From positions 1-51,668 of the forward strand of contig NZ_RHOG01000017.1 of assembly GCF_003946405.1 (NCBI RefSeq): a stretch of DNA of 51,668 nucleotides. Reading direction: 5' to 3'. The stretch comes from Lacticaseibacillus yichunensis. GTDB lineage: Bacteria; Bacillota; Bacilli; Lactobacillales; Lactobacillaceae. A program made the position numbers and the translations under genes. Below the pieces are notes generated by a model, which did no database searches, was not told where the DNA came from, and saw only the letters and a list, made by a program, of their open reading frames with translations. This document shows, piece by piece, positions 11,071 through 49,030 of the stretch (within the stretch, counting starts at the first letter, position 1; every line of letters begins with the position of its first letter).

Positions 11071-11953
11071 AAAACCCACCATTAAATCCACGCTGAAGGC
11101 GCTGTTATATCTCCTACCGATGCTGGTGGTGACGATCACCTTCAGCATCTGGCCGATCATCAGCTCCTTCATGATGAGTTTCTACACGAAGTACGATTAT
11201 TATAACGACAAGGTCAGCGCGATCGGGTTTGATAACTTTGTCACGCTTTGGCAGGACCCTGAGTTCCATTTGGCAGTGCGCAACACCCTGATCTTCGTGG
11301 TCGGCGTGGTGCCTATCACCGTCATTTTGTCGCTGATCATCGCGCTTCTTTTGAACCAGATCAAATGGCTGTCCGGCTTTTTCCGCACGGTGTACTTCCT
11401 GCCGTTCGTCACCAGTACCGTCGCCATCGCGATGGTCTGGAACTGGATCTACCATTCTGATTACGGGCTGATGAATTATTTTCTGGGGCTCGTGGGGATT
11501 CATCCGATCAATTGGTTGACGGACCCGAATTACTCGCTTCTGGCGCTCATCATCATGAGTATCTGGAAGAACCTCGGCTTCAACATCATCTTGTTCCTTG
11601 TTGGACTCAACAACATCGACAAGCACTACTATCAAGCCGCCGAGATCGATGGTGCCAATTCCTGGCAACGTTTCTGGAACGTCACCATCCCACTGCTCTC
11701 CCCGATCACCTTCTTGGTCTCGGTCAACGGTGTCATCGGCAGCTTCAAAGTCTTCGACCAGGTCTACGCGTTGTTCGGCGGCCAGCCAGGCCCCGCCAAA
11801 GCGGACTTGACCATTGTGTATTACCTCTTTGAGAAGTTTTACACGGAAAACAAGTACACGCTGGCTGCCGCCAGTGGCGTCTTCTTGTTCTTCCTGATCT
11901 TGCTGGTCACGCTTGTGCAGATGTGGTATTCCCGCAAGCACGTGCATTATTAG
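11060..11953 (+). CDS. ugpA: ABC importer permease (UgpA-like)
   Basis: A 297-residue inner-membrane permease with six predicted membrane helices. The EAA loop that docks onto the ATPase is visible as YYQAAEIDGANSWQRFWNVT in the C-terminal half. The ATG at 11060 overlaps the ATPase gene by 11 bases, which implies translational coupling; a GTG at 11051 is possible but less likely. Together with the next gene it should form the membrane channel of the importer. Substrate assignment rests on the operon as a whole. Confidence 0.82.
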   Translation: MINEKPTIKSTLKALLYLLPMLVVTITFSIWPIISSFMMSFYTKYDYYNDKVSAIGFDNFVTLWQDPEFHLAVRNTLIFVVGVVPITVILSLIIALLLNQIKWLSGFFRTVYFLPFVTSTVAIAMVWNWIYHSDYGLMNYFLGLVGIHPINWLTDPNYSLLALIIMSIWKNLGFNIILFLVGLNNIDKHYYQAAEIDGANSWQRFWNVTIPLLSPITFLVSVNGVIGSFKVFDQVYALFGGQPGPAKADLTIVYYLFEKFYTENKYTLAAASGVFLFFLILLVTLVQMWYSRKHVHY

Positions 11954-12793: not shown

Positions 12794-14092
12794 ATGAAAA
12801 AGAGTTTTTGGGGTAAAGCACTACTGGGGATCTCCGCGCTCGCATTGGGCCTGGTCCTAACCGCTTGTGGTAGCAACAATAGCTCAGATAAGAGTAGCAA
12901 CGGCGGCAAAGTCACGATCACCTTCTGGCACGGTATGACGGGCCCTTATGGTAAGGCTTTGAACGGTATCATCAAGGACTTCAACAACTCCCAAGACAAG
13001 TACGTCGTCAAAGGCACTGCCCAGGGCAACTACGCGACCTTGCAGCAAAAGATCATGGCCGCAGCCAAGTCCAAGAAGCTCCCAACGATCGCACAGACAA
13101 CTTACACGACCGTTCCGGACTACGTTAAGAACAACTTCCTTGCACCACTGGATCCATACATGCTGAAGGGTTCCGACAAACTCTCCACCGCATCGATGGA
13201 TGATATCTATCCGGCCTTCTTGTCCAGTTCCAAATATCAAGGCAAGTACTATTCTGTGCCATTTTCCAAGTCCGTCCGTGTCCTCTTCTACAACAAGAAG
13301 CTGATGGATCAACTTGGCGTCAAGATGCCGACCAGCTGGGAAGAGATCGCAGCCCTTGGCCCACAGCTCAAGAAAAAGGGCATCATGGCGATCGGCTTTG
13401 ATAAGTCCTTCGACATGGAGTTCGAGGGTCTCGCTCGCCAAGCCGGCAACGCGCTGGTTGAACCTGACTCACTGAAAGTCAACGTCGATTCTAAAGAAAC
13501 GTTGACTGCGGCCCACTTCATCTGGGACATGCTGCAAAAGGGTTACGCCAAGACCGCCGGCGAAGATTTCTACGGCGACAAGGCGTTCCAGACCGGCAAG
13601 ACCTTGTTCTATGTCGGCTCCTCTGCTGGTGTCACCAACATGAATCAGACTGCTCCAAAGTCGCTTGATTGGCACACCGCCCCACTTCCAACTTACAATG
13701 GTCAAAAGGCGACCGAACTGGCCGGTAATGACCTTGTGATGTTCAACTCTGGTAGCGATGCCCAAAAGAAGGGCGCATGGGCCTTCATGAAGTTCCTGCT
13801 GTCCAAGAAGGAAACAATCAAGTGGGCTGAAGGCACCGGCTATGTGCCGCTGCGCAAGTCCGCCGTTGAAGATCCTACCTTCCAGGATTGGCTGAAGAAG
13901 AACCCGGCCAATGCGGCTGCTGTTAACTCGCTGGACTTCGGCTTCCAGTCGACCGCTTTTGTCGGCTTCACCGAATACCGCAACGACTTGCTTGATGCCG
14001 TTGACGCCATGATCTCCAAGAAGACCCAACCTGAAAAGGCGCTGGCTGACTTGAAGACCAAGGCGGAAAAAATCATCAAGGACAATAACTAA
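12794..14092 (+). CDS. ugpB: Extracellular solute-binding lipoprotein (UgpB-like)
   Basis: A 432-residue family 1 solute-binding protein anchored to the outer face of the membrane. The N terminus is a lipoprotein signal with the lipobox LTAC and the modified cysteine at residue 25, followed by a serine/asparagine-rich linker. The mature part begins VTITFWHGMTGPYG, and the segment YSVPFSKSVRVLFYNKKLM is characteristic of UgpB-like proteins. By homology it would bind glycerol-3-phosphate or a glycerophosphodiester and deliver it to the permeases; sugar oligomers cannot be excluded. A strong terminator follows. Confidence 0.8.
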   Translation: MKKSFWGKALLGISALALGLVLTACGSNNSSDKSSNGGKVTITFWHGMTGPYGKALNGIIKDFNNSQDKYVVKGTAQGNYATLQQKIMAAAKSKKLPTIAQTTYTTVPDYVKNNFLAPLDPYMLKGSDKLSTASMDDIYPAFLSSSKYQGKYYSVPFSKSVRVLFYNKKLMDQLGVKMPTSWEEIAALGPQLKKKGIMAIGFDKSFDMEFEGLARQAGNALVEPDSLKVNVDSKETLTAAHFIWDMLQKGYAKTAGEDFYGDKAFQTGKTLFYVGSSAGVTNMNQTAPKSLDWHTAPLPTYNGQKATELAGNDLVMFNSGSDAQKKGAWAFMKFLLSKKETIKWAEGTGYVPLRKSAVEDPTFQDWLKKNPANAAAVNSLDFGFQSTAFVGFTEYRNDLLDAVDAMISKKTQPEKALADLKTKAEKIIKDNN

Positions 14093-14106
14093 GCGATAAT
14101 GTACGG

Positions 14107-14143
14107 AAAGCCTTGCAACAGAAAATGCGGCAGGGCTTTTTTT
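14107..14143 (+). terminator. Terminator of the ABC importer operon
   Basis: A stem AAAGCCTTGC / GGCAGGGCTTT with a short loop followed by T7 lies 14 bases after the ugpB stop. Confidence 0.85.
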
Positions 14144-14150
14144 GACGGAA

Positions 14151-14260
14151 GTGGGACAAAGGGCGGGCTTGGGTCCGACAGGTAAGCGTCTCAAGCGCCA
14201 GGTCCGACCTTTGGACCAGGTGATTGGCGCCTGATGCTCGGAGCCGGACAGTTGACCCAC
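14151..14260. repeat. Long imperfect hairpin (single divergent copy of the family)
   Basis: The outer stem GTGGG / CCCAC and inner blocks GTCCG, AGCGTC, AAGCGCC and AGGTCC each have complementary partners in reverse order in the right half, giving an imperfect hairpin of about 110 nt around the loop near 14205-14210. Size, position just behind a terminator and architecture match the tandem hairpins at 35504, 41479 and 48579, although primary sequence differs. The rest of this 298-base gap shows only the ribosome binding site of the next gene. Confidence 0.6.
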
Positions 14261-14390
14261 GACACTGCGATCACATTGGTGCACGAGATAGGAACTACTG
14301 GCAGCGTCCGTCAGGTGGCGGTTGCCCCTTTCCAATGACCCGACCAATGGCTTATGATGGAGTGTTACAACAGAAGGAGGAGTTGCGCAA

Positions 14391-15629
14391 ATGACACAGA
14401 TACGATTTTTGAATGGGTTGACCACGATCGGCGGCAATATCGTCGAATTTTCCAACGGGGACAGTCGCGTGATCATGGACTTCGGGGTGGCCGCTGATCT
14501 GACCAACGAAACGATCGAGTCGGCGATGGCGGCGGGCAAGCTGCCGCAGGTGCCGGAACTGTTTGGCGAAGGCCCGGACGCGTTCGCGCATGAGGCCATC
14601 TTCATCTCGCATCTGCACATCGATCACATGGGCGCGCTGCAATACCTCAAGCGCGACATTCCGATCTACCTCTCCGCGCCCAGCTACCAACTGTATCAGA
14701 CGCTGATCGCACTGGGCGTTGAAAAACCGGTCGCAAACCTCCATCCCCTGCCGTTTGAAACACCGATTCAGATCGGCGCATTTTCCGTGGAAGGCTTTGC
14801 CAGCGACCACGACGAACCGGGCGTCATGGCGCTGCTGGTCGGCGATGGCACGCGGTGGTTCGGCCATTCCGGCGACGTCCGGCTCAACGGCCCGCATCTT
14901 GACCGCGTGAAAAATTGGGCGGCGGCCTTCCGTGACAAGAAGCTCGCGATGTTCATGGTGGAAGGAACGACTTTTTCCTTCGCCAGCCCGGCGCCGGTGG
15001 AAGATAGCGCCCATCCAAGTGTGCCGCTGACGGAGGACACCTTGCAGGAGCGGCTTGAGGAACAGCTCAAGGCCGCCCCGCAGCTGGTCGTGATCAACCC
15101 GTATATTCGCAACTATGCGCGCCTGGAAAACATTCAGGCGACCGCCCATCGCGCCGGCCGCCAAATGGTCTGGGGGAAAAATGACGCCACCGTGCTTAAG
15201 ACAATGTGCGGGGTCGAGCCCGATTTTGTGCTCGATGACGACATCCACCTGCGCACCATTCAGGCTGACCCCAGCCACTACCTGTTGCAAAACGATTTTG
15301 ACCAACTCGCGCAACTGGCCGACCTGCCGATCAGCGTTTATCTGCATAGCAATGGCGAACCGCTGGGCGACTATGATCCGCGGTTCAAACAGCTGCAGGA
15401 CTGGCTCGCAGACCACGAGATTCCGCTGGTCTTTCTGTCTTGCTCCGGCCACGCCCTGCGCCAAGATCTCGTCACCTTAGTGCGCTGGATCGCCCCGCAG
15501 ATCGTCGTGCCGTGGCACAGTTTTCACCCTGAGCGTGAGGCCCAGGCGCTGGATGAACAGACCAAGGCCCAGGTGCTGCTACCGGAAAAAGACTTGTACT
15601 ATGATCTCGATGAACCGGACCAAGACTGA
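14391..15629 (+). CDS. Metallo-beta-lactamase-fold hydrolase (RNase J-like)
   Basis: A 412-residue metal-dependent hydrolase. The zinc motif appears as SHLHIDHMG near residue 80, with further ligands in ASDHDEPGVMAL, FGHSGDVRLNG and, near the C terminus, PWHSFHPE, a layout typical of RNase J-like and beta-CASP-type enzymes. It is shorter than true RNase J (about 550 residues) and lacks the C-terminal dimerisation domain, so I do not call it rnj. It may be a nuclease or another hydrolase. The start has a strong GAAGGAGGAG site. It is followed by a bidirectional terminator shared with the MATE gene. Confidence 0.78.
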   Translation: MTQIRFLNGLTTIGGNIVEFSNGDSRVIMDFGVAADLTNETIESAMAAGKLPQVPELFGEGPDAFAHEAIFISHLHIDHMGALQYLKRDIPIYLSAPSYQLYQTLIALGVEKPVANLHPLPFETPIQIGAFSVEGFASDHDEPGVMALLVGDGTRWFGHSGDVRLNGPHLDRVKNWAAAFRDKKLAMFMVEGTTFSFASPAPVEDSAHPSVPLTEDTLQERLEEQLKAAPQLVVINPYIRNYARLENIQATAHRAGRQMVWGKNDATVLKTMCGVEPDFVLDDDIHLRTIQADPSHYLLQNDFDQLAQLADLPISVYLHSNGEPLGDYDPRFKQLQDWLADHEIPLVFLSCSGHALRQDLVTLVRWIAPQIVVPWHSFHPEREAQALDEQTKAQVLLPEKDLYYDLDEPDQD

Positions 15630-30227: not shown

Positions 30228-30299
30228 GCGCGGTTAGTGTAATGGATCGCACGTGAGATTCCGGTTCTCGAAATCAGGGTTCGACTCCCTGGCTGCGCA
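30228..30299 (+). tRNA. tRNA-Arg (anticodon CCG)
   Basis: A complete 72-nt cloverleaf can be folded: seven-pair acceptor stem (GCGCGGT with GCTGCGC, two wobble pairs), D arm GTGT/GCAC, anticodon stem TGAGA/TCTCG with loop TTCCGGT, a four-base variable loop, and T arm CAGGG-TTCGACT-CCCTG. The anticodon CCG reads the CGG arginine codon. CCA is not encoded. The 3' half of tRNA-Arg genes is a frequent integration site for prophages and islands in lactobacilli. Confidence 0.95.
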
Positions 30300-35420: not shown

Positions 35421-35503
35421 GAGGGCCCCACTTTCTGCAGCATCCCGCTGCGTTCAGTTCACTAGCACCAAGTATAACATGCCGGGCGTGTCATGAATAG
35501 CAT

Positions 35504-35646
35504 GGTGCGGAGGCTCGCGGGATGGTGGAACAGATAGGTCGGCTCAGGTGCTTGATGGCGCTCCTTGCCATCGAGTGCATGAGACGCCTATATGTTTCCA
35601 CCATGCGAGCCGAAGCCCGTTTACATGGTGCGGAGGCTCGCGGGAG
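35504..35646. repeat. Long hairpin repeat, locus A (one full and one truncated copy)
   Basis: The full copy (about 35504-35624) pairs GGCTCGC with GCGAGCC, then ATGGTGGAA with TTCCACCAT, ATAGG with CCTAT and CTTGATGGC with GCCATCGAG. The flank GTGCGGAG is repeated 123 bases later, where a second copy begins and is broken after about 20 bases. It occupies the gap between rapZ and the DUF308 gene. Confidence 0.8.
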
Positions 35647-35732
35647 GATCGAGTAGCTAGCTTGCCGAAAAAGTAGTCTGAATCAAAAAAAGACGAACCG
35701 CACCGCTGCAGGCCGCCTCACAAAATTTTTCG

Positions 35733-39358: not shown

Positions 39359-41371
39359 TTATTTCTCCGCTTCCAGTTCGAGTATCGTATCGCGCAAGGT
39401 CGCCGCCTGCTCAAAGTCGAGCTTCTTAGCGGCCGCTTCCATCTGGCCCTGCAAATTAGTGATCAATTGCTTGCGCTCGGCCTTGCTCAAGTCATGCAAG
39501 TCGACCTCGGCAAAACTGCGCTTGTCATCCGGGTTCTCATTGCCTTCCTTATCAAACGCGGTGATTGCCGCGCGAATCGGCTTGACGATGGTCTTGGGCG
39601 TGATGTGGTGTTTTTCGTTGAACGCCATCTGAATGGTCCGGCGGCGCTGGGTCTCCTTGATCGCCGCATCCATTGAATCGGTGATCTTATCCGCATACAT
39701 GATGACCTTGCCGTGTTCGTTTCGGCTGGCCCGGCCGATCGTCTGAATCAATGAGCGCTCGGCGCGTAAAAAACCTTCCTTGTCCGCATCCAGAATCGCG
39801 ATCAGCGACACTTCCGGAACATCGATGCCTTCCCGCAGTAAATTGATGCCGATCAGCACATCGTATTTGCCAAGGCGCAGGTCACGGATGATCTCGGTCC
39901 GCTCAAGTGTTTTGACATCGGAATGCAGGTATTGCACCTTGATGCCCATGTCCTTGAGATAGTCAGTGAGATCCTCCGCCATTTTTTTCGTCAAGGTGGT
40001 GATGAAGACACGCTCATGTTTTTCAACACGCTCATTGATCTCGGACACCAAGTCATCGATCTGGCCCATGATCGGCCGCACCTCGATCTCCGGATCCAGC
40101 AGCCCGGTCGGCCGAATGATCTGCTCGGCCACATCCTTCTTCGGCACCCGGTCAAGCTCATACGGCCCCGGCGTCGCGGACACATATAGAATCTGATTAA
40201 CATGCTGCTCGAATTCATTCAGCATCAGCGGCCGGTTGTCCAACGCGCTGGGCAACCGGAACCCGTAATCGATGAGCGTCTGCTTTCGCGCGCGGTCCCC
40301 GTTGTACATCGCCCGCACCTGAGGCATGGTCACGTGACTTTCATCGACCATGATCATGAAGTCTTTCGGGAAAAAGTCGAGGAGCGTGAACGGCGGCTCG
40401 CCTGGCTTGCGCCCTTCCATGTGGCGGGAATAGTTCTCGATGCCGTTCGTGTAGCCCATTTCCCGTAGCATCTCGATGTCATACGTCGTGCGCTGCTCAA
40501 GCCGCTGGGCCTCCAGCAACTTATTTTGCGCCCGCAACTCGCCCAGACGCTCCGTCAATTCCGCCGAGATGCCGTCGATCCCCTTGGCCAGCGCGTCATC
40601 GGACGTCATGAAATGCGTGGCCGGGAAAATCGCGACATGATCGCGCACACCGACCACTTCGCCCGTCAACGCATCGACTTCGCTGATTCGATCGATCTCA
40701 TCGCCAAAGAATTCGACCCGGATCGCATGATCATCCCGGCTCGCCGGAAAGATCTCGACGACATCCCCGCGCACACGAAAACGCCCGCGCTGAAAATCGA
40801 TGTCATTGCGGTCAAATTGGTTATCGACCAGCTGCCGCAAAAGCGTGTTCCGGTCGATCTCTTCGCCAGTGCGCAGCGACAGCACATGGTCCGCATATTC
40901 AGTCGGTGACCCCAACCCAAAAATCGACGAGACCGACGCCACCACGATCACATCATTGCGCTCCAGCAAGGCGCTGGTCGCACTGTGCCGAAGCTTATCG
41001 ATCTCATCGTTGATTGCACTGTCTTTTTCAATATAGGTATCGGAGCTTGGAACATAGGCTTCCGGCTGGTAATAATCATAATAGGAAACGAAATATTCCA
41101 CAGCGTTATGCGGGAAAAATTCCTTGAATTCGCCATACAGCTGGCCCGCCAAGGTCTTGTTGTGGGACAAGATCAACGTGGGGCGATTCAGATTGGCGAT
41201 GACATTGCTCATCGTGAAGGTCTTCCCGGTCCCCGTGGCGCCCAGGAGCACCTGTTCTTTTTCCCCGTCCTCAAAGCCCTTTGTCAGCTGAGCGATGGCT
41301 TCCGGCTGATCCCCCGCTGGCCCATAAGGCGAGACCAACTCAAATTTGCGATCCGATTGACGCTCGATCAT
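39359..41371 (-). CDS. uvrB: Excinuclease ABC subunit B
   Basis: The helicase-like subunit that verifies damage and loads UvrC. In 670 residues: Walker [11 protein letters not shown], the DNA-gripping beta-hairpin region [31 protein letters not shown]-like VDESH, helicase motif [12 protein letters not shown], and the C-terminal UVR domain ([22 protein letters not shown]) that contacts UvrC. The ATG at 41371 has GGAGG upstream. A LexA-type box and a terminator-like hairpin precede it. Confidence 0.98.
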
Positions 41372-41410
41372 AGGCATTCCTCCAAGATGAGACAATTGAT
41401 AGCCGAACAT

Positions 41411-41475: not shown

Positions 41476-41478
41476 CTA

Positions 41479-41893
41479 GGGTGTGAAGCGCGGCGTTTTG
41501 GGCCGTGCAGCTAGGTCCATTAGGCGCATGAGGCGCTCTTTGCCTCGTGCGACTGATGGCCTAGATGTCTCGGCCCTGCCGCGCGAAACCCAACTAGGGT
41601 GTGAAGGCTCGCGGGATGGCGGGGCAGCTAACTTGGCTCGGGAGCTTGAGGCGCACTTCGCCTTGAGTGCACGAGACAGTTAGATGTCCCCGCCATGCGA
41701 GCCGGAACCCAACTACAGTGTGAAGGCTCGCGGGATGGCGGGGCTGCTAACTTGGCTCGGGTGCTTGAGGCGCACTTCGCCTCGAGTGCACGAGACAGTT
41801 AGATGTCCCCCGCCATGCGAGCCGGAACCCAACTACAGTGTGAAGGCTCGCGGGATGGCGGGGCAGCTAGGTCCATTAGGCGCATGAGGCGGC
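41479..41893. repeat. Tandem long hairpin repeats, locus B (three full copies and one partial)
   Basis: Copies begin at the motif GTGTGAAG at 41481, 41599, 41718 and 41838 (periods 118, 119, 120). Each full copy folds on itself: in copy 1 GCGCGGC pairs with GCCGCGC; in copies 2 and 3 GGCTCGC pairs with GCGAGCC, followed by ATGGCGGGG with CCCCGCCAT and CTAACT with AGTTAG. All end in ACCCAACTA. Copy 4 is cut off by the stop codon of the HD-domain gene and combines the start of copies 2/3 with the middle of copy 1. Confidence 0.88.
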
Positions 41894-42535
41894 TTATGCC
41901 TGCTCCTTGACCATGATGGCGCGAGTCAATTTTGTCAACATGTCCCTGTCCGCGAATTCTTCGTTCAACATGTCCGGCAAGATCTCGTCCAGGAAGTAGC
42001 GGACGGATGGCCGAGCGTCAAAGGACATGATCACGGCCAGGCTTTCCGTATAGATGTTCACGAAGACGCGCTCCGGATTGCCCTTTTCGATCTCGCCAAA
42101 TGATTCGTAAAGCAGATCGACTTTATCGGAGATGCTCAGAATCTGGCCCTCCAGTGTGTCGTCCTTGCCTTCCCCCAAACGGCGCCGGTAAACAGCTTGA
42201 TAGTCGGCCGGAATCTCATTTTGGATAAAGTTTTCCGTCATTGACTCCTCGACATCTGCCAACATCGCCCGCAGCGCCGGCGTCGCGTATTTGACCGGCG
42301 TTTTGATGTCGCCGATGAAGCGCTCCGTGTAATCATGGTTCAACGCTTTTTCATAGAGCCGCTGCCAATTGACCGTGTTGCCGGCGTGTTCCTCAATGTC
42401 CCCGAGCAGCTGGGCGATCTCTGCCACCTTGAAACTATGCGCGGCAACGCTGTGTTCCGCGTACTTGAAAAATCCCGGTGCGCGCCGCAATGTTTCCAAA
42501 TTATTCAAACCCTGGATGAACTGGTGCATGCCCAT
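41894..42535 (-). CDS. HD-domain phosphohydrolase (YfbR-like)
   Basis: A 213-residue metal-dependent phosphohydrolase of the HD superfamily. The metal-binding residues appear as EHSVAAHSFKVAE (first His), ALNHDYTERFIGD (His-Asp) and SDKVDLLYE (last Asp), as in the YfbR 5'-deoxynucleotidase group. A role in nucleotide clean-up is likely but the substrate is not shown. Two ATGs two codons apart are possible; I chose 42535, ten bases after AGGAGGG. Its stop codon abuts the hairpin array. Confidence 0.83.
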   Translation of the reverse strand: MGMHQFIQGLNNLETLRRAPGFFKYAEHSVAAHSFKVAEIAQLLGDIEEHAGNTVNWQRLYEKALNHDYTERFIGDIKTPVKYATPALRAMLADVEESMTENFIQNEIPADYQAVYRRRLGEGKDDTLEGQILSISDKVDLLYESFGEIEKGNPERVFVNIYTESLAVIMSFDARPSVRYFLDEILPDMLNEEFADRDMLTKLTRAIMVKEQA

Positions 42536-42628
42536 GAGCAAAGACCCTCCTATTTTGTGTGAGTGTAAAAATTTTTCCAATCGTACCACGCAGACCGGCG
42601 TGGGGCAAGGCCAAGCGCCTGCCAGCTG

Positions 42629-42667
42629 CAAAAAAACGGCCGACCACCGAATGATGGCAAGCCGTTC
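42629..42667 (-). terminator. Terminator of the phosphoglucomutase gene
   Basis: AACGGC and GCCGTT form the base of an imperfect stem followed by T7 on the minus strand, 9 bases after the stop. Confidence 0.75.
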
Positions 42668-48515: not shown

Positions 48516-48578
48516 GTCACCCGACTTTCACATAGTTACTCCCAGTTTATCATCACTCAGCGGAAGTTAACAGGGGCA

Positions 48579-48840
48579 GGGTGCGGAGCGGGGCGCTTAG
48601 GTCTGAGCAGCTAGCTTGGCCTGGGCGGTTGATGGTGCACTTGGCCATCGGGCGACCAGGCCAACTAGATGTCTCAGGCCTGCCCCGCGAAGCCCAACTA
48701 CGGTGCGGAGCGGGGCGCTTAGGTCTGAGCAGCTAGCTTGGCCTGGGCGGTTGATGGCGCACTTGGCCATCGGGCGACCAGGCCGACTAGATGTCTCAGA
48801 CCTGCCCCGCGGAGCCCAACTACGGTGCGGAGGCCCGCGG
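48579..48840. repeat. Tandem long hairpin repeats, locus C (two full copies and one truncated)
   Basis: GTGCGGAG recurs at 48581, 48703 and 48825 (period 122). Each full copy pairs GCGGGGC with GCCCCGC, CTGAG with CTCAG, CTAG with CTAG and TTGGCCTGG with CCAGGCCAA around a loop with GATGG/CCATC. Copies end in AGCCCAACTA. The third stops after about 16 bases. It lies upstream of hprK and behind the element at 48902. Confidence 0.88.
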
Positions 48841-48901
48841 TTAGCTATTTCTCTTTCTATTAATTGAAACTCAAATGATTGTCAATTTCATTTCAGTTTG
48901 C

Positions 48902-49030
48902 GGAGGATTGCGGGTGAACGCCGGCCAGAATTGGCTGGAACGCTCCCAAGTGACTTTAAGCCTGCAAAAACCGCGGTCTTAAAGCTCACTTTCGGTGTAA
49001 GCGGCACAGCCGGCCCCTGAATGGCTGAGA
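48902..49030 (+). ncRNA. Candidate structured RNA element with a 22-codon frame
   Basis: A GGAGG (48902-48906) is followed by a GTG frame of 22 codons (48914-48982; VNAGQNWLERSQVTLSLQK..). The same stretch folds into hairpins: CCGGCCA/TGGCTGG (48921-48938), AAGTGACTTTAAG with CTTAAAGCTCACTT (48948-48991, one bulge) and CAGCC/GGCTG (49007-49027). I recall near-identical peptides being predicted at many sites in casei-group genomes, which would point to a repeated element rather than one gene. Strand and function are uncertain. Confidence 0.45.

Follow-up and report, generated by a model that had tools for sequence, protein, structure and literature searches.

Covarying hairpin repeats in tandem arrays of Lacticaseibacillus yichunensis belong to a dispersed family found in other lactobacilli and on plasmids

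Between uvrB and a gene for an HD-domain protein, Lacticaseibacillus yichunensis harbors a tandem array of hairpins whose arms change from copy to copy and stay complementary. This raises the question of what kind of element the array represents, whether its fold is maintained and how its units are multiplied. We analyzed the array within a stretch of 51,668 bp (assembly GCF_003946405.1, contig NZ_RHOG01000017.1), hereafter called the window. In agreement with the original prediction, the array (array B, 41477-41893) consists of three complete units and one partial unit. Units 1 (41477..41594), 2 (41595..41713) and 3 (41714..41833) comprise 118, 119 and 120 nt, respectively, lie on the plus strand and fold into hairpins; they are followed on the same strand by a 3′-truncated unit (41834 to approximately 41893), which stops at the yfbR-like gene. 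The claimed period of about 119 nt was independently returned by TRF. The flanking genes were also assigned correctly, namely uvrB (39359-41410) and a YfbR-like HD-domain gene (41894-42631). As both are encoded on the minus strand, the unit strand of array B is antisense to its two neighbours. The arms read GCGCGGC/GCCGCGC in unit 1 and GGCTCGC/GCGAGCC in units 2 and 3, with complementarity kept, and the pair GCGGGGC/GCCCCGC ascribed to a related locus (array C, see below) was found there.

Array B is one of three arrays in the window. Array A, situated between rapZ and a DUF308 gene, contains one complete unit (35502..35624) and a 3′-truncated unit (35625..35660, end approximate), while array C, upstream of hprK, contains two complete units (48577..48698 and 48699..48820) and a short 3′-truncated unit (48821..48843, end approximate), all of them on the plus strand. 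Each of the six complete units folded into a single long hairpin (-66 to -80 kcal/mol) with z-scores of -6.0 to -8.3, and none of 200 shuffled sequences was equally good. The truncated unit of array B, for which 65 of 200 shuffles were equally good (z -0.3), forms no hairpin. The assumption that the layout corresponds to no known named element agrees with Rfam: a scan of the window gave nothing over array B, the sole match being a tRNA gene (30228-30299), and the best model below its gathering score was MIR2950 (22.5 bits, threshold 76, E 0.041).

From the six complete window units a covariance model (R1) was built, as had been proposed, and a search with it yielded many further matches. In the host genome at least 150 matches were obtained (150 of 1059 candidates were scored). 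Copies were also counted by nhmmer in the window and 62 stretches around R1 matches, after removal of overlapping antisense matches. The 628,631 bases examined contained 237 copies in 110 arrays, 209 of them near full length, which is a lower bound.

The units are mostly 117-122 nt long and are bordered by a 5′ box and a 3′ box, which in the window-type unit are NAGGGTGYGNAG and a sequence near GRAGCCCAAC, respectively. After the 5′ box comes a helix of 7-8 pairs, which an asymmetric internal loop separates from a longer helix with further bulges and a short loop. The stem has approximately 44 base pairs and asymmetric bulges at constant positions. As these bulges mark polarity, integron attC sites, with core sites at both ends recognized by an integron integrase, were also considered. 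Since the lengths of 415 units from the host and its sister species fall in all three remainders modulo 3 (156, 138 and 121 units), the units are unlikely to be coding. An octamer of the 3′ arm, TAGATGTC (e.g., window positions 41563-41570), also occurs in the Lsal1-type CRISPR repeat as given in the accessible part of PMC3496567, which may well be a chance match of eight bases.

Within the arrays the units are arranged head to tail with spacers of 0-6 nt in 118 of 124 same-strand gaps. Array size is usually 1-4 units; one and two full copies were each found in 39 of the 110 arrays and three in 19, while four occurred in six arrays, five and six in one array each, and five arrays had no full copy at all. 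Inverted neighbours were not encountered among the 110 clusters, nine of which seemed mixed only by an antisense match overlapping the same unit. Arrays start directly with a unit and have no distinct end modules of the boxA/boxC type. Of 105 arrays tested, 70 carried a truncated unit after the last full one, which began among bases 1-15 of the unit in 64 cases and whose median end lay near position 32. At three sites (L202 near 16750, L133 near 15660 and L094 near 3204) we noticed remnants in which the hairpin is lost and the boxes almost adjoin.

To judge the covariation of the arms, the best-scoring 150 of 218 R1 matches were aligned, 147 of which were distinct. Standard pairs made up 95.8% of the 6416 stem cells, a value that leans toward the structure as the alignment was fitted to the R1 model; in controls with slid register 35-39% were paired. 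Double changes affected 35 of the 44 stem pairs and amounted to 1028 cells, compared to 306 +/- 25 in shuffles. With only one unit per array (n = 93), pairing was 95.8% between the arms of the same unit and averaged 81.2% between foreign arms, and in 65 of the 93 units the own 3′ arm paired at least as well as any other. In this set, 26 of the 44 pairs occurred as at least two Watson-Crick types with three or more units apiece. Neither of the two results named beforehand as speaking against the proposal, i.e., no significant covariation in a larger alignment and an origin of the copies as independent low-complexity expansions, was obtained. The original prediction had gone further and regarded the fold, be it RNA or cruciform DNA, as selected. 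Its covariation is real and strong, the data given below narrow the fold toward that of one strand, and selection on it is what we infer, with correction between the arms as a less probable alternative.

A cruciform should tolerate G-U and A-C equally, because a G-T on one strand is an A-C on the other. In columns with a Watson-Crick majority, 219 G-U and 54 A-C cells were counted on the unit strand; G-U exceeded A-C in 23 columns and the reverse held in seven (sign test, p 0.005), related units not being independent in these counts. Over all columns, including those picked under RNA pairing rules, the figures were 633 and 54, and in columns where both G-U and A-C are rare 92 and 50. Units of the casei type (the 72 best rows of an alignment of 150, 66 of them distinct) pointed in the same direction with 14 versus 9 columns and 43 versus 22 cells, a difference that was not significant (p 0.40). 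Moreover, a few wobble pairs are nearly fixed, in 147 and 130 of 147 units of the window type and in 65, 61 and 56 of 66 units of the casei type. On account of the excess of G-U on the unit strand and these wobble pairs, a fold of one strand, either RNA or single-stranded DNA, would fit the alignments better than a symmetric cruciform. The G-U excess does not separate RNA from single-stranded DNA.

The history of the arrays was studied by comparison with Lacticaseibacillus mingshuiensis (G021, taken to be strain 117-1), which shows 93.4-94.3% nucleotide identity to the window in long blocks of the orthologous stretch. In 70 stretches of this species, a few of which overlap, 237 copies were found in 126 arrays, 213 of them near full length. 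For 25 of the 110 own arrays, one or both flanks were absent in G021. Among the other 85 loci, 79 had copies at the same site and six were flagged empty; a check for target duplications disclosed no clean empty site. Seven sites lacking a full unit in G021 were aligned. Five of them (own24, own49, own60, own95 and own103) retained the unit start, the expected product of recombination between direct repeats, here the unit start and the tail. At own42, itself a remnant, a remainder similar to the 3′ box was left in G021, and at own31 there was no trace of a unit. Because most sites were already occupied in the sister species and none of those compared showed a precise insertion with target duplication, it is the dispersal of the arrays that suggests mobility to new loci.

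The arrays turn over at their sites and exchange units among loci. Copy number was the same at 29 of the 79 orthologous arrays and different at 50, and the nearest relative of 209 own units resided in the same array in 36 cases, in the orthologous array in 60 and at another locus in 113. An entry of new units at one end of the arrays was considered and rejected, the distances between first units and between last units being similar (medians 24 and 26.5, 74 pairs). The 5′ flank could be aligned to within 5 nt of the array at 78 of the 85 loci and the 3′ flank at 41, while 15 or more unaligned bases were present at five 5′ flanks and 36 3′ flanks, part of the 3′ misalignment being short truncated units missed by the profile. 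The 5′ border is stable and the 3′ border consists of a truncated unit and changing filler. By eye, the filler after array C of the window (approximately 48905-49000) resembles that after array B of L. mingshuiensis (L040, beyond 11137-11255), and an array and its filler may move together. We also looked for an autonomous copy of the repeat, reading two sister sites with about 2.1 kb between the flanks, neither of which resembles the repeat. At one of them (L190, approximately 13050-14866), an element resembling the IS605 type (TnpA and TnpB, recognized by eye) lies directly 3′ of the array, and the orthologous own site (L111, 7404-7790) is without it; the other has open frames that by eye resemble a sigma factor and a neighbour.

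The search was extended beyond the host, as originally suggested, and disclosed matches of the same shape in other lactobacilli and on plasmids. R1 matched in at least 20 of 301 genomes of a family sample, belonging to 6 of 40 Lactobacillaceae genera (11 candidates per genome scored, strict filters), and in a class-wide sample of 299 genomes in its own genome only. A second model (R2), built from six units each of G005 and the complete, single-contig congeneric genome G051, gave at least 150 matches (the number scored) in 121 arrays of G051. Congeners differ widely in copy number. When eleven units were taken from the window, G051, three further genera and a Pediococcus plasmid, they had few letters in common but the same stem. 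Ten of these rows stem from R1 or its matches and the plasmid row from blastn; 90.3% of the cells in 33 pairs were paired and 28 pairs had double changes, with the structure predicted from the same rows, compared to 30-46% paired in slid controls.

Some sites are shared as well. R1 matches directly upstream of hprK were also found in L040, L045, L046 and Schleiferilactobacillus perolens L066, and within the yfbR-uvrB gap at three of the 22 loci L040-L061 (L040, L045 and L046). As in the window, very stable single hairpins were noticed in Schleiferilactobacillus either between yfbR and uvrB or directly upstream of hprK (L086 near 10666, L088 near 886 and L066 near 2986), with an R1 match in L066 only. 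The arrays upstream of hprK in other species hint at a function or at slow loss.

A single casei-type unit matched 15 plasmid records, nine of Pediococcus and six of Lacticaseibacillus, and a single window-type unit none; in phages, blastn gave no match for either unit. Four sites were compared between related plasmids, whose identity in the matches listed was 97.7-99.9%. Three sites had a variant without part or most of the hairpin in which one or both boxes were kept, and at the fourth, two whole in-register units of L. paracasei WX322 are absent from HL182. Thus, hairpins disappear readily, and arrays gain or lose whole units in register. In the titles and abstracts searched, which included few subscription papers and no bioRxiv preprints, no description of such a repeat in lactobacilli was apparent; one may be in print elsewhere.

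With slightly better than even confidence, we regard the family as non-coding, mostly intergenic interspersed hairpin repeats of the BOX/REPIN kind, which would be mainly passengers with a constrained single-strand fold. A constraint would act on the fold of a single strand, be it RNA or single-stranded DNA. Arrays would grow and shrink when the repeated unit starts recombine or slip, and gene conversion would copy units between loci. Spread to new loci and plasmids would be brought about by a putative trans-acting factor or occur together with neighbouring genes.

REPINs pair two inverted REPs and rely on a RAYT, a transposase of the Y1 type. Y1_Tnp was detected in 11 of 25 genomes of the genus, including G000 (two) and G021 (three), and was absent from G001, G006, G011 and G014, which have 38-83 R1 matches. 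A RAYT/REPIN system was set aside on the basis of these four many-copy genomes, though G000 and G021 have some Y1 transposases. RVT_1 was present in eight of the 25 genomes, among them G014, and a retroelement was set aside as reverse transcriptase is absent from G000, G021, G001, G006 and G011. Neither enzyme tracks copy number. Since near-identical plasmids readily delete hairpins, hundreds of copies that have survived intact could indicate a function in the host. We tentatively put forward an element whose shape and not whose sequence is conserved, namely a hairpin of about 44 bp with marked polarity that might be read as RNA or single-stranded DNA by a putative factor not tied to Y1 transposase or reverse transcriptase, and that would thereby keep hundreds of copies despite ready deletion.

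A host function is at the center of another explanation, a family of functional RNAs whose unit strand is transcribed and whose hairpin serves as a protector of mRNA 3′-ends, as an RNase III site or as a small RNA. It agrees with the covariation, the preference of G-U over A-C, the nearly fixed wobble pairs and the recurrence of arrays at the same sites in other species. Furthermore, 28 of 109 arrays start at a stop codon (-4 to +12 nt), namely that of an open frame which lies upstream, runs in the same direction and has at least 100 codons; shifted controls gave 2-10. However, only 49 of 107 arrays have the upstream gene on the unit strand; both neighbours are antisense in 39, convergent in 25, both sense in 24 and divergent in 19. 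A position as terminator or 5′ UTR was rejected for lack of a consistent gene orientation, as judged with a crude open-frame caller. As copy number also differs at most orthologous arrays, we think that the family is rather unlikely to be a functional RNA.

Complementarity might also be maintained neutrally if template switching or repair copied one arm to the other without selection on the fold. Such copying also yields compensatory changes and identity of the arms, and long hairpins are hot spots of rearrangement, as seen in the plasmid deletions. However, single changes precede double changes among the closest units: with one to four differences there were four single and no double changes, with five to eight differences 30 and 12, and double changes dominated only at larger distances. 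Copying between the arms would also erase the bulges and the several wobble pairs that stay fixed, and it predicts equal numbers of G-U and A-C, contrary to the counts above, which deviate less in the casei type. This explanation therefore appears improbable.

In 69 of 110 own and 77 of 126 sister arrays, whose sites are largely shared, the unit reads along the strand that is C-rich in the flanks. In G051, at the start of which dnaA was recognized by eye, orientations were 25+/37- up to 1.45 Mb and 36+/23- in the remainder; a partial list of R1 matches had given 7+/26- and 23+/8-, and the strong replication-strand bias that it indicated was dismissed. A site of chromosome architecture or replication, at which hairpin or duplex would bind a host protein and orientation would follow replication, draws on these figures but is the least probable reading, since the bias is weak in the fuller list, the arrays are irregularly spaced in G051 (CV 1.25), copies occur on plasmids too and their number varies among congeners.

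The repeat appears to work like BOX or REPIN elements and may be filed beside them, as a member of neither. The closest parallel is the pneumococcal BOX element. In the accessible part of PMC3049150, BOX of Streptococcus pneumoniae is described as interspersed and mostly intergenic, with a variable tandem module and a predicted RNA stem-loop, as differing in copy number between strains and as often supplying a gene's stop codon; its authors consider it parasitic. The modules boxA and boxC flank boxB, and terminal inverted repeats and target duplications are reported there. As far as this text goes, our repeat shares with BOX the dispersal, a variable tandem module (0-6 full units per array), the stem-loop and the starts at stop codons. 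Unlike BOX, it repeats the whole hairpin unit, ends with a truncated unit and has a stem covarying along most of its length; no target duplication was noted at the 85 loci compared, which included no clean empty site.

REPINs and BIMEs with RAYT transposases (see PMC3116915 and PMC2817692) served as a second comparison; they have in common with our repeat more than 100 short palindromic, intergenic and clustered copies per genome, whereas the latter forms head-to-tail arrays and is frequent in four genomes without a Y1 match. ERIC (127 bp) and RUP (107 bp), simple units according to the same portion of PMC3049150 with IS630-like ends in RUP, are likewise intergenic, hairpin-like and of similar length, but our units form head-to-tail arrays and no transposon end matched. 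The STAR elements of Staphylococcus, according to the accessible part of PMC3532100, are direct repeats dispersed over intergenic regions, where they expand and contract in place, as our arrays do; their sequences are reported to be stable and distinct per locus, whereas our units are exchanged among loci and form long covarying hairpins.

The 237 copies, each about 120 nt long, account for at least about 1% of the 2.56-Mb genome. Having no match in Rfam, the repeat is easily overlooked in annotation, and it can confound assembly. It may also influence mRNA ends and rearrangements. In several genera, genomes have hundreds of these covarying copies, a natural experiment on whether the complementarity of bacterial hairpins is maintained by selection, acting on RNA or on single-stranded DNA, or by copying from arm to arm.
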